64,000 nucleotides of DNA from Nocardioides sp. Iso805N (GTDB lineage Bacteria > Actinomycetota > Actinomycetes > Propionibacteriales > Nocardioidaceae). Of the stretch, positions 52,272 to 58,651 are shown in pieces. Under the pieces are notes generated by a model. That model saw nothing but the letters and a program-made list of their open reading frames with translations. It searched no databases and had not been told where the DNA came from. The DNA is taken from NCBI RefSeq assembly GCF_000364605.1, contig NZ_KB822578.1, positions 372,001-436,000 on the forward strand, given 5' to 3'. Position 1 is the first letter of the stretch. Each line of letters opens with the position of its first letter. A program made the translations under genes and the position numbers.

Positions 52272-52757
52272 ATGATCCCGTTGACCGAGACCGAGCTGCG
52301 CAAGGCCTTCGTCAACGTGACCAAGGGCGAGGTGGGCCGGCTCCACCTCCCCGTCGACCTGGCGTCGCAGCCCTGGGATGACCTGGACTTCCTGGGCTGG
52401 TGCGATCCGAAGGCGCCCCAACGGGCCTACCTCGCCACGCTCCACGACGACCGGCTGCTCGCGGTCGCGCTGCGGCTCTCCCAGGAGGCGCGGGGGCCGC
52501 GCAGGACGATGTGCTCGCTGTGCCTGACCGTCGGCGACGTGGCGCTGATGGTGGCGACGCGCGCGGGGCGTGCGGGGCAGACCGGCAACTCCGTCGGCAC
52601 CTACATCTGTGCCGATCTCGCCTGCTCGCTCTACGTGCGCGGCAAGCGCCGGATCGCCACCCCGATCACCTACGAGACGCTCAGCACGGAGCAGCGGATC
52701 GCCCGGCTCGTCGCCAACCTCGAGACCTTTGTCGGCAGGGTGCTCCGTCCGGCCTGA
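52272..52757 (+). CDS. FBP-domain (FusB-like) zinc-finger protein
   Basis: Protein of 161 residues of the FBP family, to which the EF-G-binding fusidic-acid-resistance protein FusB belongs. The N-terminal part starts LTETELRKAFVNVTKGE. The C-terminal treble-clef zinc finger has MCSLCLTVGD and, further on, YICADLACSLYVRGKRR, giving four cysteine ligands. By family it may bind EF-G and help free stalled ribosomes; no resistance role is shown here. It is divergent from the TetR gene and directly downstream of its operator. Confidence 0.78.
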   Translation: MIPLTETELRKAFVNVTKGEVGRLHLPVDLASQPWDDLDFLGWCDPKAPQRAYLATLHDDRLLAVALRLSQEARGPRRTMCSLCLTVGDVALMVATRAGRAGQTGNSVGTYICADLACSLYVRGKRRIATPITYETLSTEQRIARLVANLETFVGRVLRPA

Positions 52758-52846
52758 CCGGCTCACCCCCCATCGGGGCGGCATCGGCGGCGCCTCAGGG
52801 CGATGGATCGATGCGGACCCGGCGGCGCGGACCTATCGTCGGACCC

Positions 52847-54319
52847 ATGACACAGACGCCGCTCGCCGAGCCGCTACGCCTGGCGACCAGCGCGGGTCGG
52901 TGGGTCCTGGTCGCGACGATCCTGGGCTCGGGGCTGGCCGGCATCGATGCGACGGTCGTCGGGGTGGCACTGCCGACCATCGGCCGTGACCTCGGCGCCA
53001 CCTTCTCCGGGCTGCAATGGACGGTGAGCGCCTACACCCTGACCCTGGCGTCGCTGATCCTGTGGGGCGGGGCGATCGGCGACCGGTACGGCCGGCGGCG
53101 TGCGTTCCTGGCCGGCGTCGTCGCGTTCACCGCTGCGTCGGCGCTGTGCGCGGCCGCGCCGAACATCACCTTCCTGGTCGTCGCGCGCGCCGTGCAGGGG
53201 GTCGGCGGTGCCCTGCTGACGCCTGCCAGCCTGGCGATCATCGAGTCCGCCTTCGCGCCCGAGGACCGGGCGCGCGCGATCGGCACCTGGGCCGGGTTCA
53301 GCGGCGTGGCGACGGCGCTGGCGCCCTTCGTCGGCGGGTGGGTGCTCGCGGTCGCCTCCTGGCGGTGGGTCTTCCTGATCAACATCCCGATGGCGGCGCT
53401 CGTGATCGCCCTGACGACCCGGCACGTCCCCGAGTCCCGGCAGGACCGGATCGCTGGAGCGCGCTCCGGCGCCTCGGACTGGCAGGGCGCGGTCCTCACA
53501 GTGATCGGCCTGGGCACGCTCACCTGGGCCGCGCTCGGATCCTCCGGTGGGGGAGCCGTGCTCGAACGCGTCGTCGCGGTGTGCGTGGCAGTGGTCGCGT
53601 TCTCGGCGTTCGTCCTGGTCGAACGCCGTTCCGACCACCCACTGGTCCCGCTGGGACTCTTCGCCGACCGGGTCTTCAGCGTCACCAACGTGGCGACCTT
53701 CGTGCTCTACGGCGCGCTCGGCTGCTTCTTCTTCCTGCTGGTGATCGCACTCCAGATCATCTGCGGCTTCACGCCGCTCGCGGCCGGCGCCGCGACCCTG
53801 CCGGTGACGGTGCTGACACTCCTGCTCTCCGCACGCAGCGGTGAGCTGGCAGCCCGGATCGGTCCGCGCCTTCAGATGAGCGTCGGGCCGCTGCTGTGCG
53901 CGATCGGGGTGATCCTCACGCTGCGTCTCTCGCCGCACTCCAGCTACTGGGCCGACGTCCTGCCGGCGATCTGCCTCTTCGGTCTCGGGCTGGCGGCCTT
54001 CGTCGCACCGCTGACCTCGACCGCGCTCAGCACCGCGCCCATCGAGAACGCGGGGGTTGCCTCCGGGGTCAACAACGCGGTCGCCCGCTCCGGCACGCTG
54101 CTCGCGGTCGCCGTCATCCCTGTCCTCACCGGCCTGAGCGGTGCCGCCTACGAGGACGTGGGCAGCTTCCAGGACGGCTATCGGGCCTGTACGTGGGTGA
54201 TCGCGGTCCTGCTGGTCGGCGCGTCGGCGATCGCAGTGGTGGGCCTGCCGCGGGTGTGCCGGCCGCTGCGGGCGCCGCGCTGCCGGCCCGATCCCGTCGC
54301 CGGGTCGCCGGGCCACTGA
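52847..54319 (+). CDS. MFS transporter, DHA2-type
   Basis: Second 14-TM DHA2 exporter, 490 residues. Motif A is GGAIGDRYGRRRAFLAG, and motif C is near AGFSGVATALAPFVGGWVL. ATG 52847 lies 7 nt after TATCGT (52834-52839), a leaderless arrangement. Its last ten codons (PDPVAGSPGH) lie in the 35-bp sequence repeated at 56993-57027, so the gene's 3' end served as the left boundary of the islet and remains intact. Substrate unknown. Confidence 0.88.
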   Translation: MTQTPLAEPLRLATSAGRWVLVATILGSGLAGIDATVVGVALPTIGRDLGATFSGLQWTVSAYTLTLASLILWGGAIGDRYGRRRAFLAGVVAFTAASALCAAAPNITFLVVARAVQGVGGALLTPASLAIIESAFAPEDRARAIGTWAGFSGVATALAPFVGGWVLAVASWRWVFLINIPMAALVIALTTRHVPESRQDRIAGARSGASDWQGAVLTVIGLGTLTWAALGSSGGGAVLERVVAVCVAVVAFSAFVLVERRSDHPLVPLGLFADRVFSVTNVATFVLYGALGCFFFLLVIALQIICGFTPLAAGAATLPVTVLTLLLSARSGELAARIGPRLQMSVGPLLCAIGVILTLRLSPHSSYWADVLPAICLFGLGLAAFVAPLTSTALSTAPIENAGVASGVNNAVARSGTLLAVAVIPVLTGLSGAAYEDVGSFQDGYRACTWVIAVLLVGASAIAVVGLPRVCRPLRAPRCRPDPVAGSPGH

Positions 54320-54320
54320 G
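54286..54320 (+). repeat. 35-bp direct repeat, left copy (att-like)
   Basis: Identical over 35 bp to 56993-57027; begins GCCCGATCCCGTCG and ends CCGGGCCACTGAG. It forms the end and stop codon of the MFS gene. Identity stops sharply at both ends. Confidence 0.85.
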
Positions 54321-54426
54321 GCAGGTCGGTTGTTGGAGGTGGGACGGCCCCGATCTGGCTTCGCGTGCCGGCTACCTCCCGGGTAACGCGGCATCCTGGC
54401 GCCGGGGCTTCCTCTCGTGACGTTCC

Positions 54427-54458
54427 GGCGCTCTGCCACGGACTCGCGGCAGAGCGCC
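54427..54458. terminator. Hairpin downstream of MFS gene
   Basis: GGCGCTCTGCC and its exact complement with a 10-nt loop, 108 bp past the MFS stop and inside the islet. It could end MFS transcription or stop the minus-strand secreted-protein transcript. Confidence 0.6.
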
Positions 54459-54609
54459 CGATATCCCCGCTGCGCGCAACGGAGATGTCGAAGGGCTAAC
54501 CGGGACGAATGATTTCCAGGTTGATTCCGAACCGCGCCGCTCTAGCTGCGCCCATGCGACGGCCCGCGCATCGGCGCGGTCCAGATCTCGCCGACCGAGG
54601 CAAACCCTC

Positions 54610-54993
54610 TCAGGAATGCTTCCAAGCGGCGCACTGAAGAATGGCCTTGGTGCCATATTCTCCCGTGCACGCACGGTAGTAAATTGTACCGCCTGATACA
54701 GCCTTCGTTGCCGGATCGCTCCCGGCGCCGCTGTGGTTCCACAATTTCGATACGGATCCACTGCTGCCAATCTTCCATTCCGCAACCGCTGAGTGTCCGT
54801 CTGGGCACTCGTCGATAGCTTCGACCTTGCCACCAAAGTAGAAAGCCCAAGCGCTGCCATAGCCGCCGGAGGTGCAGTTTCCGCTGTACAAGATAGACGG
54901 ACCGTCAGCGGCGCTGGCCGAAGTGGTTGTGAGGCCGATCAAGGCCGCTGCCGAGGCAAGAATTGCCCCTATCGCAATGAGAATAGCGCGCAT
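54610..54993 (-). CDS. Small secreted four-cysteine protein, function unknown
   Basis: A 127-residue exported protein. The signal peptide (MRAILIAIGAILASAAALIG, cleavage near residue 28 after SASA) is followed by a mature part of about 100 residues with Cys40, Cys63, Cys109 and Cys121, enough for two disulfides, in SGNCTSGG, DECPDGHS, RACTGEYG and LQCAAW. It resembles small secreted proteins of streptomycetes that I cannot name. ATG 54993 follows GAGGAG. The codon use is less GC-rich than in the flanks. It shares the islet and strand with a CcdA homologue, which may support its disulfide chemistry. Confidence 0.72.
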   Translation of the reverse strand: MRAILIAIGAILASAAALIGLTTTSASAADGPSILYSGNCTSGGYGSAWAFYFGGKVEAIDECPDGHSAVAEWKIGSSGSVSKLWNHSGAGSDPATKAVSGGTIYYRACTGEYGTKAILQCAAWKHS

Positions 54994-56062
54994 AATTTTC
55001 TCCTCTTTTCGGGGTGGGATCGGTGTCGTTGGCCTCAAGGGGATGGGTGCTGCCGAGGTGCCTACCTCTGTGCTGAGTCCTCGGAAGCCAAGTACAAGCA
55101 ATTTGAATTCGAGCGCTTACATTCGATCTGCAGTGTCGAGCCATCCGGTGAACGAGTCGGATGGCGAAGTTAGTCGTGGGCTGATCTGCGCTGCGCGTCG
55201 GATTGTGGTCGGGTGCGTGCAGGCCCACCGAAACCGTTTTCGCCGAGGCTCGGTCGGCTCTGGCCCGGCCGCGATGCAATCGGTGATCCATCGCCGGACC
55301 CTGATAATGGCGAAAGCCGCTTGCGAATGAGTCCCCTTTGCGCATCGCCAGGGGTTTCGATAGTGCCGTTGACGCTTCTTCAACGGGTCCTCGTGTCTGG
55401 CGCGGTCGCCACCCACGGCGGAACGGGGTGCGCGGAGCCAACTCATCCCATCGGCTTTGCGCTGGAGTCAAGGCCCATCGCACTCACTGCCATAGCATGT
55501 CTCAGTAAGGCATGTTTTGTCAATTGATGGTCGTTGTCGGTTGATCGCCGGCGGGGACGAAGTGCGCGGGGCCGGCGCGACCGTCCTCGTCGGTCAGTCG
55601 GCGCCACGGTGGCGCCTCATGGCGCGATGTGACTCGGTTGGTGAACCGCTGTCAACGTGAATGTGGCGCGTGTCGCCTCGACACGAGGTCGCACAAAAGT
55701 GGGGTACGACGATCAGATTCGTGTGGAGGGGCCGGGGGCCGAGCCGGGGAGCGACGGCAGATCGTGCCTCGTGTCGCGGATATCTGTTCGGACATCCGGC
55801 CGGGGCGTCGTAGATGACGCCCAAGGGTGAACGACAGGCCGTGCCGTGAAGTGCCCGAATTTGGGCGAGGCTGGACCAGATCGGAGTGACCTAGGACTGA
55901 AGATCTTGGGTCGCCCGAGGCCTCCCGGGCCATCGGCCCTGGTGTTCGAGGCGCCGTCGAAGATGTCCGCTGCCTGTCGCTGCGCCAGCGAGTTCGGCCG
56001 GAAGTAATCGAAGAACAAGCTGCAGACGTCTTGCACGAGCTACGAGATGGAGTTGGCTTTCC
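54994..56062. other. 1.07-kb islet interior with no convincing gene
   Basis: Short open frames on both strands here show no recognisable domain, good ribosome-binding site or consistent codon bias. The stretch contains a 17-bp palindrome GGCGCCAC-G-GTGGCGCC at 55600-55616 and an A+T-richer patch at about 55490-55530 (GCATGTCTCAGTAAGGCATG). It may hold promoters for the flanking minus-strand genes and remnants of lost islet genes. Confidence 0.5.
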
Positions 56063-56821
56063 TCAAAATTCGATGCCAGTCCAGTGGTCTGTCAGGTGCG
56101 ACTGCAGCCATTGGATTCCGTACGACCACCAGCCGGAGATGAGTGCGAGCCCGACCACGATCATCATTGCTCCGGCGACACATGGGACGACGCGTCCGTG
56201 GCGGCGGAAAAAGCTTAGGGCTCCGAGGGCTTTGCGCCAAGCGAGAGCGAAGACAATGAATGGGATCCCGAGGCCTAGCGAATATATGGATAAAAGTAGA
56301 CCGCCTCGTACGGCGCCGCCGGAGATGGAGGCCAGCGTCAGGATCGCGCCCAGCGTAGGGCCGGTGCAGGGGAGCCATCCGAGGCCGAAGAGCGCGCCGA
56401 TGACGGGAGCAGCGGCGAGCCCGACCGCTGGAATCCGATGGATCCGATATTCTCGGCTCAATAGCGGAATCGCGCCGATTGTTGCAGCCCCGAAGATGAT
56501 CGTCATGCATCCGAGTGCAATCTCTAAAGTGCGATCGTGGGCGCTTTCCCATCGGCCGAGGCTCCCGGCCCCAAGGCCTAGCAAGGTGAAGACAAGGCCG
56601 AACCCAAAGACGAAGAGACATGCGCCCGCCACCATGCGTCCACGGCTGGCGCTACCGGAGGCAATCTCTCCGCCGGAGAGGCCGGAGGTATACGAGAAGT
56701 AGCCCGGCAGCAGCGGAAGAACGCACGGCGAGAAGAAGGACAGCAGGCCGGCGACCAAGGCAACGGGTGCGGCAACCAGCAACGATCCGGAGAAAACCGT
56801 TTCTCCCAGCCACTGATGCAT
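56063..56821 (-). CDS. ccdA: CcdA/DsbD-type membrane thiol-redox protein
   Basis: Integral membrane protein of 252 residues with about six transmembrane segments. The two redox cysteines characteristic of CcdA lie in FFSPCVLPLLPGYFSY (first helix) and GWLPCTGPTLGAILTLA (fourth helix). CcdA moves reducing equivalents from cytoplasmic thioredoxin to the outside, for cytochrome c maturation or disulfide control. No cytochrome c assembly gene (ResB, CcsA) is beside it, unlike the usual chromosomal copy. ATG 56821 follows GGAAAGGG. It lies in the islet with a four-cysteine secreted protein, a suggestive pairing. Confidence 0.85.
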   Translation of the reverse strand: MHQWLGETVFSGSLLVAAPVALVAGLLSFFSPCVLPLLPGYFSYTSGLSGGEIASGSASRGRMVAGACLFVFGFGLVFTLLGLGAGSLGRWESAHDRTLEIALGCMTIIFGAATIGAIPLLSREYRIHRIPAVGLAAAPVIGALFGLGWLPCTGPTLGAILTLASISGGAVRGGLLLSIYSLGLGIPFIVFALAWRKALGALSFFRRHGRVVPCVAGAMMIVVGLALISGWWSYGIQWLQSHLTDHWTGIEF

Positions 56822-56992
56822 GCAGCACCCTTTCCGTTGCGCTTGCGGCGAAGCGCTTTGTCATCCGCCTTGTTGGTGCGCTGTCGCAGCCCGCGGGCGA
56901 ACATACGATGCGCTGGTAGGCCCCCACCTGTTCTCCAGCCCGCCGGTGAGGATACCGGAGGTTATTGCGCCGCATCGCTTGTGCCTCGTGAT

Positions 56993-57027
56993 GCCCGATC
57001 CCGTCGCCGGGTCGCCGGGCCACTGAG
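56993..57027 (+). repeat. 35-bp direct repeat, right copy (att-like)
   Basis: Exact copy of 54286-54320, not attached to any MFS coding sequence. The remnant of the MFS 3' end marks the right edge of the islet, 12 bp before the esterase terminator. Confidence 0.85.
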
Positions 57028-57038
57028 ACGACCTCGTC

Positions 57039-57070
57039 GAGGCGGGTCGGTTGGATCGCCGACCCGCCTC
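57039..57070. terminator. Terminator hairpin, 12-bp perfect stem
   Basis: GAGGCGGGTCGG and CCGACCCGCCTC around an 8-nt loop, 23 bp past the esterase stop (minus strand). Before the islet arrived it would have served the MFS gene as well. Confidence 0.75.
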
Positions 57071-57093
57071 GGCGTACGCCGCATCCGGTGTGG

Positions 57094-58485
57094 CTACGGC
57101 GTGCCCGCCGGCTTGAACGCCACCGTGGTCAGGAAGTTGTAGAGCAGCTGGCGCCACGTGTACCACTCGTGGCCACCGAGGACCATGTCCGTGGTGAACG
57201 GGACCCCGTGACCGGTCAGGCTGGTCTCGAAGGCCGTGATGCTCGGGACCGTGATGGAGTCGAAGAGCCCGCCGCCGACCTGCAGGCCGAGGAGCTGGTG
57301 CAGGGCGGGGTTGCTCCACAGCGGATCGCTGTCGGCGGGGACGTTGCGGTTGCCGATGCTCCAGCTGGCGTAGTAGCCGAACAGCCCGGTGTCGTGGAAC
57401 AGCAGGTAGTTGGCTCGAGCGGCTCCGGCCGAGAGTCCGGCGAAGGCGCGCTGGGCGGGGTCGTCGCTCACGTTGAAGTGCGCTTGGACATAGGGCAGCA
57501 CGTAGTTGCGCAGGTCGGTGTCGTAGCAGCTCACGTCCTGCCCGGTGCAGGTGCCCAGGTTGTTGAAGTTCGTCATCACCACCACCATCGGAGCGATCTT
57601 CCGCGAGCCGATGAGGTTGTCCAGGATCGCTCCCGCGGCTCCCTGGGTCGACCAGTCGACCTCGTTGCCGCCTCCGCCATGGCTGAGGACCAGGACGGGG
57701 TACGGCGCGTGTCGCCGCTGGCTGTAGCCCGGCGGCAGGTAGACCGCGAGCGGGTGCGTGCCGACCGGGGAGGTCGACTGGGCGTCGGGGTAGGAGACGT
57801 CCAGCAGTCGGCCGTGGGTGCGCGTGCGCGGCGACTGCCAGGACAGGTCGAGGGTGCCGAACCGTGGGTCGGAGGGCACGTAGACCTGGCTGGTGGGCTC
57901 CACGGATCCGGAGGTGTTCCAGGGTGGGTTCGCCGGGTCGGACAGCTCGGTGCAGCCGCTCAGGGCCGGCGCTGCGCTGGTGCAGTCGACGTAGAACCCG
58001 TAGGTGAAGGTGCCCGAGGGCAGCGGCGTCGTGTAGGACCACACGCCCGTCGCCTTGTCCTGTGTCATGTCGACCACGGGCCAGTTGGGTGCGGCGCCCT
58101 GGTTGGGGTTGGCGATGGGGAAGTCGCCGGGCCGCCACTGCGTCGGCAACCGGCCCTCTGAGCTGGTGGTCGTCGTGGCGGCGGGGCTGGAGAGGAACCA
58201 TTCCCCGCGCAGGCGCACCGACGTCGCAGTGGGGTCGTCGTAGCGGAAGGTGACCTCGTAGCCTGTCGGGGCCTTCCCGGTGTGGATCACTTCGGGAGAG
58301 ATGATCCGGTGGCCGTGGTGCTTCGCGGCCGGCGCCTTCTTGGCGTGCGTGCTCGCGCCTGCGGGCCGGCCGTGGCCGGCCGATGCCCAGGAGGGGGAGG
58401 TGAGACCGGCTGCGGTCAGCACGAGGACGGCGGCGGCGATGGTGGCGCCGAACAGGCGGCGATTCTTGGTGGAGGGGTGGGACAT
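57094..58485 (-). CDS. Secreted esterase, feruloyl-esterase-like (putative esterase family)
   Basis: Exported hydrolase of 463 residues. Signal peptide (GATIAAAVLVLTAAGLTS), then a beta-sandwich domain at about 70-200 like the N-terminal module of bacterial feruloyl esterases (VTFRYDDPTATSVRLRGEW). The catalytic alpha/beta domain has LVLSHGGGGNEVDW, the nucleophile elbow AGLSAGAARAN and a C-terminal GGHEWYTWRQLLYNFL with the catalytic His. ATG 58485 follows AGGAGG. It is divergent from the sugar ABC operon, so it probably releases oligosaccharides or acids from plant polysaccharide for uptake. Exact substrate unknown. Confidence 0.82.
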   Translation of the reverse strand: MSHPSTKNRRLFGATIAAAVLVLTAAGLTSPSWASAGHGRPAGASTHAKKAPAAKHHGHRIISPEVIHTGKAPTGYEVTFRYDDPTATSVRLRGEWFLSSPAATTTTSSEGRLPTQWRPGDFPIANPNQGAAPNWPVVDMTQDKATGVWSYTTPLPSGTFTYGFYVDCTSAAPALSGCTELSDPANPPWNTSGSVEPTSQVYVPSDPRFGTLDLSWQSPRTRTHGRLLDVSYPDAQSTSPVGTHPLAVYLPPGYSQRRHAPYPVLVLSHGGGGNEVDWSTQGAAGAILDNLIGSRKIAPMVVVMTNFNNLGTCTGQDVSCYDTDLRNYVLPYVQAHFNVSDDPAQRAFAGLSAGAARANYLLFHDTGLFGYYASWSIGNRNVPADSDPLWSNPALHQLLGLQVGGGLFDSITVPSITAFETSLTGHGVPFTTDMVLGGHEWYTWRQLLYNFLTTVAFKPAGTP

Positions 58486-58651
58486 GAGGCCTCCTTTCGG
58501 AGGGTTCCGAGATGTGGTCGATGTCACACGGCACCGACCGATCGACGCTACGTCCGGCGCATTTGAGCGTCAAGGACGTCCGTGACCACGGTCACGATCC
58601 ACGGCGGACCGACCGCGGCGCAGCGACCTGGAAATGGTTTCGGCACAGGCA

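Follow-up and report, generated by a model that had tools for sequence, protein, structure and literature searches.

The stretch of Nocardioides sp. Iso805N DNA analysed here, referred to as the window, comprises 64 kb (G000:C4:372001-436000, where G000 is the 4.43-Mb assembly in 23 contigs). Between an efflux transporter gene of the major facilitator superfamily (MFS) and an esterase gene, it harbors a 2.7-kb segment that is bordered by two identical 35-bp direct repeats and carries two genes, one for a secreted cysteine-containing protein (Cys protein) and one for a CcdA homologue. This segment is a real and well-delimited integrative islet that probably arrived recently and is of a known kind. 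The features of the locus are as follows (window coordinates):

52847-54319, plus strand: DHA2-type MFS efflux transporter, the target gene, an open reading frame (ORF) with intact frame (PF07690 E 1.9e-56, TIGR00711 E 4.3e-71)
54286-54320, plus strand: left 35-bp direct repeat, candidate core of the left attachment site (attL), found by exact repeat search
54321-56992: the islet itself (2672 bp at a GC content of 0.625), enclosed by the repeats and absent from the corresponding junction of the related genome G263
54427-54490: two adjacent strong, terminator-like hairpins near the left end (z-score -2.97 for 54410-54500)
54613-54993, minus strand: Cys protein, 127 aa, with a signal peptide read from the sequence and four cysteines after it
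54994-56062: intergenic stretch of about 1.07 kb between the two cargo genes, mostly without clear codon-position GC bias and with no recognisable gene
55329-55460, minus strand: weak candidate for the decayed N-terminus of a tyrosine integrase, 44 aa at 36% identity with two stops in frame
56063-56821, minus strand: CcdA/DsbD-TM homologue, 252 aa (PF02683 E 2.7e-12)
56887-56955: two 20-bp direct repeats, alike at 16 of 20 positions, weak candidates for arm-type sites, 38-106 bp from the right repeat
56993-57027, plus strand: right 35-bp direct repeat, candidate core of the right attachment site (attR), found by exact repeat search
57035-57074: strong terminator-like hairpin between the right repeat and the esterase gene
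57094-58482, minus strand: esterase (PF00756) with native-like codon use, absent from the G263 junction

The 35-mer GCCCGATCCCGTCGCCGGGTCGCCGGGCCACTGAG occurs at 54286-54320 and 56993-57027 with zero mismatches, as the preliminary description of this DNA had claimed. In the left copy, the first 34 bases are the end of the MFS gene, stop codon (54317-54319) included, and the last base follows it. The frame is intact, and the claim of an insertion at the gene end is supported. This 35-mer is the longest exact direct repeat of the window, and the longest repeats in 30 order-3 Markov surrogates were 16-20 bp, so that its length is far above chance. With up to three mismatches, it is present at only two places in the complete G000 genome and at three places in two of the 215 genomes of the genus set (G000 counted among them), the third copy being a single one in G263 with 3 mismatches in 34 positions. 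It had been considered that the repeat might be a common dispersed sequence, which did not come true, and that the same repeat might flank other cargo in other strains, of which no case was found. A search of IMG/VR with a 23-mer of the repeat (one ambiguous base) gave no match either. The pair of 20-bp repeats near the right end was equalled in 2 of 100 mononucleotide shuffles.

The interior is indeed less GC-rich than its surroundings (0.625 versus 0.70-0.73; MFS 0.728, esterase 0.697) and carries the two genes that had been named. GC content at third codon positions is 0.63 in the Cys gene and 0.70 in ccdA, and 0.90-0.94 in the MFS gene, the gene upstream of it, the esterase gene (0.93) and the downstream gene for a substrate-binding protein (SBP). 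Both cargo genes look intact and, judged from these values, are foreign in codon use. A subset of ten islet frames was searched against Pfam (E <= 1) and PHROGs, which resulted in no Pfam match and in weak PHROG matches alone, all to families without known function. No RNA family matched at E <= 1 across window positions 52500-58600. At the DNA level, matches of the islet to 72,556 plasmid and 50,697 phage records (12 and 1, respectively) were confined to ccdA, and no parent integrative and conjugative element (ICE) or integrative mobilizable element (IME) was found in these comparisons. The notion that relatives might carry the islet genes without the repeat did not come true, as none of the fetched loci of other genomes has both genes.

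G263, the closest genome found, stands out among the genus genomes with an MFS match of 82% identity that extends to the stop codon. There, the MFS 3' end is uninterrupted and is followed by a hairpin-like sequence of its own and then by the SBP gene; 45 bases past the end of the MFS match, homology to the window restarts ahead of the SBP gene (window position 58582). The junction contains no islet, no second repeat and no esterase gene. Thus, the site is empty in this relative, with the caveat that the esterase is missing there too. Of the uninterrupted MFS-esterase junction that had been expected in relatives, the uninterrupted MFS end was found and the esterase was not. The proposal that the esterase terminator originally followed the MFS gene is less certain: a strong hairpin does lie directly after the right repeat copy (z-score -2.65), but G263 has neither islet nor esterase at its junction. 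Because the MFS 3' end of G263 is uninterrupted, the islet is a lineage-specific insertion, probably a recent one. At the break upstream of the MFS gene (window 52831-52832), G263 possesses a response-regulator gene (PF00072 and PF00486) and the window a different gene.

The age of the insertion can be approached through the repeat itself. In the comparison of G000 with G263, the MFS gene differs at 140 of its 320 fourfold sites and the SBP gene at 69 of 254. Neutral divergence is hence 27-44%, yet both 35-bp copies are identical; the chance of finding no difference in 35 bp is at most 1.5e-5, or at most 0.006 at half the divergence. Barring gene conversion, this supports a duplication that would be younger than the split of G000 and G263.

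The esterase is encoded next to the right repeat, and its query matched two of the 215 genus genomes, G000 included, at E <= 1e-20. Like the islet beside it, this gene is lineage-specific. Since its codon use is native-like, we read islet and esterase as two separate events, in which the esterase would have come first because the right repeat abuts the terminator hairpin. A likeness of the left flank to the terminator stem (GCAGGTCGGTTG) was equalled in 169 of 4974 pairs of random windows and in 13 of 512 islet windows and was not used as evidence.

The Cys protein has no Pfam or NCBIfam match and belongs to a sparse family, with matches in 9 of 294 genomes of the taxonomic family (E <= 1e-3) and 3 of 374 genomes of the class (E <= 1e-5), G000 included in both. 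A profile built from the alignment matched, at E <= 1e-6, 5 of 391 genomes of the order, of which three already belong to the alignment. Three phage records matched at E <= 0.01, namely the Streptomyces phages JustBecause, Kela and Sham, whose small secreted proteins share 34-36% identity with the islet protein over 76% of its length; these homologues are phage genes annotated as hypothetical. In IMG/VR, two loci were found with the alignment and none with the single protein, and plasmid records gave no match at E <= 1e-5. Transfer RNA genes lie close to relatives of the Cys gene in four of the eight places examined (tRNA-Gln in the genome G014, tRNA-Arg in both of the mutually alike IMG/VR contigs L091 and L092, and a tRNA array in Sham, L103). 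The stretches of 20 kb inspected in G046, G168 and G087 contained none, nor is one annotated within 2.5 kb of the relative in JustBecause. Repeats of at least 16 bp within 9 kb of the relatives in G014, G046, G168 and G087 amounted to just two 18-mers, both in G168. The fold model of the protein (mean predicted local distance difference test score, pLDDT, of 61) contains strands only and has no match among PDB or viral structures at E <= 0.001; weak fibronectin-III-like top hits were not used. A phage or island origin of the Cys gene is plausible but unproven. The islet ccdA shares 57% identity with the other G000 copy (contig C1) and no more than 60% with the remaining genus matches listed at E <= 1e-85; it is therefore not a recent local duplicate. 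A role of CcdA in serving the disulfides of the secreted Cys protein is speculative.

A second small islet was detected in G000 when exact repeats of at least 30 bp with a spacing of 0.4-30 kb were collected in 1.2 Mb of the genome (C4 1-440000, C3 100001-460000 and C1 1-400000). Two of the five pairs enclose DNA of low GC content (0.625 and 0.647) and the others DNA of 0.70-0.72. The two are the MFS islet and a pair with 1.85-kb spacing at C3:457717/459569 that adjoins a tRNA-Lys gene:

L105:14700-16601 = G000:C3:457700-459601: second islet with an imperfect direct repeat of about 50 bp and 1852-bp spacing, abutting the 5' end of tRNA-Lys

It carries one gene with an AAA_14 domain, and no integrase was noticed in its listed ORFs. 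In G263, two relatives of its repeat lie 13.2 kb apart, at about 17 and 30 kb from the tRNA-Lys gene of that genome, and may mean that the tRNA-Lys site took several loads. No recombinase was found in the 38 kb of this region searched by tblastn with four recombinase queries (three from G000, one from G014). At the start of the frame of the AAA_14 gene, three tandem 33-bp units (CGACCTGCCAAAAGGGGGAGGGTTCT core) were observed at L105:16327-16418; the core occurs once in the fetched G263 stretch. The two islets, unrelated to each other, suggest that small repeat-flanked remnants are ordinary in this lineage, which does not imply machinery shared with the MFS islet. That G000 holds a whole class of integrase-less islets of 1.9-2.7 kb, mobilised in trans as units between gene-end repeats of 35-50 bp and each with a load of one or two genes for envelope proteins or ATPases, seems quite improbable to us.

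As the 35-bp repeat, the 3' gene end, the kept frame and the lack of a recombinase point in this direction, we favour, with modest confidence, the islet as the decayed remnant of a tyrosine-recombinase element. On arrival in the lineage, a mobile element would have inserted itself at the 3' end of the MFS gene by site-specific recombination, most likely through a tyrosine recombinase. With it would have come a copy of the last MFS bases, which restored the gene at the left junction, and the original 3' end would now lie 2.7 kb farther downstream. Integrase and transfer genes may have been lost later, so that attL and attR would now enclose just the pair of cargo genes plus non-coding DNA, an arrangement similar to a cis-mobilizable element (CIME).

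Several observations weigh against this reading. The ten frames searched yielded no intact gene for an integrase, excisionase, relaxase or replication protein, and transfer genes were missing as well; the earlier statement that no integrase is visible thus holds for an intact one. What was found is one weak fragment. In tblastn, the four recombinase queries detected a stretch resembling the N-terminus of the integrase on contig C1 (E 0.034 in the window), and N-terminal queries detected the 44-residue piece with E 2.4e-5 when the islet alone was searched. Across the 1.2 Mb, its E-value was 0.013 when uncorrected (second among the matches to its query) and 0.045 after composition correction (best match to its query). 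It matched neither Pfam nor PHROGs, and the G014 integrase query gave matches with E 0.010 and 0.031 elsewhere in the 1.2 Mb where no integrase is known. The piece is a hint only of a decayed integrase remnant. Furthermore, no other element with the same 35-bp core was found, and the target sequence is poorly conserved (within three mismatches in just the two genus genomes mentioned above), which is odd for an integrase site. Synteny with G263 is also broken on both sides of the MFS gene, homology ending at 52832 upstream; because it stops on both sides, the neighbourhood is read as generally unstable.

This instability, the poorly conserved target and the failure to find a recombinase would equally suit an event that was not site-specific, in which a foreign piece was joined at a long-staggered break with a fill-in of about 35 nt, or in which a circle holding the MFS 3' end recombined by homologous crossover. 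Any duplication ending just after the stop codon would keep the frame. However, it would then be a coincidence that the 35-bp duplication stops a single base beyond the stop codon, and exact homology of 35 bp with foreign DNA is hard to obtain otherwise. We consider such an event fairly unlikely. A transposon with target duplication was rejected, as no transposase matched in Pfam or PHROGs among the ten frames searched, the duplication measures 35 bp, and none of the 25 listed inverted repeats (of 34) pairs the islet ends. An autonomous IME, ICE or prophage was likewise dismissed, since neither Pfam nor PHROGs revealed an integrase gene of its own in the frames searched.

Alternatively, the islet might have lacked an integrase from the start and be a non-autonomous element of minimal size that depends on a helper: a phage or island with the same attachment core would supply the integrase in trans. 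It looks recent, yet at most a weak integrase trace is left, and the integrase-less islet beside tRNA-Lys provides a second case. G000 has six PF00589 matches, two of which read as XerC/XerD-like, but none of them could be tied to the 35-bp repeat. In the 17-20 kb around three phage-type integrases, the longest exact piece of the 35-mer was 12 bp (a value without a chance baseline). No helper with this core and no third repeat copy is present in G000, and the non-coding DNA of the islet suits decay better; this alternative is unlikely. It could also be proposed that everything from about 54322 to 58581, i.e., islet, second repeat, terminator and esterase, arrived in one composite event or as a tandem array, given that both parts are missing at the G263 junction, where homology restarts only behind them, and that the esterase is so rare in the genus. 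But the codon use of the two parts differs sharply (third-position GC of 0.63-0.70 in the islet genes versus 0.93 in the esterase gene) and no repeat copy follows the esterase, which renders a single arrival very improbable.

For Nocardioides, the locus offers a clean and probably recent case of an integrative islet that sits behind a non-conserved transporter gene, at its 3' end. A narrow literature search found no paper on Nocardioides genomic islands with integrase and attachment site. Should any ability to excise remain, it could serve as a minimal substrate for finding the acting recombinase and could show whether such small elements spread via the integrase of a helper.

A comparable system is seen in G014, where an island of 8.06 kb with 47-bp repeats and a PF00589 integrase occupies a tRNA-Gln gene (L048:16388 to L049:4526 = G014:C11:791388-799526). 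Like the islet, it has direct repeats derived from a gene 3' end, and a Cys-protein relative adjoins it. In contrast to the islet, it targets a tRNA gene, keeps its integrase and has the Cys gene outside; the gene lies just beyond the island and was therefore rejected as its cargo. Elements with tyrosine integrases are described as having direct repeats of 8-60 bp at a gene 3' end and as rebuilding that gene, and CIMEs as integrase-less remnants that keep attL and attR (PMC5704250, a review of IMEs). The same review lists the protein genes guaA, rplL, rpmE, rpmG, rpsI, trmE and yicC as 3'-end targets of IMEs, so that the opinion of a protein-coding 3' end as an unusual attachment site has to be revised. 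According to PMC12884075, many islands lie in protein-coding genes and many rebuild the genes they entered. Compared with the CIMEs defined in PMC5704250, the islet has flanking direct repeats, no integration or transfer genes and a rebuilt gene end, but is only 2.7 kb long, has no integrase-bearing element in tandem, and its attL and attR are putative. Similarly, it resembles the tyrosine-integrase IMEs described there (in guaA, rpsI, trmE or yicC), as 35 bp falls within 8-60 bp and the 3' end of the target is restored. Unlike those IMEs, which have conserved housekeeping targets, its target is a poorly conserved efflux gene and no integrase was found. The islet is odd in its poorly conserved target and its small size. 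Nevertheless, 3' ends of protein genes are well-known integration sites, and the kind of event is known while the place is unusual.

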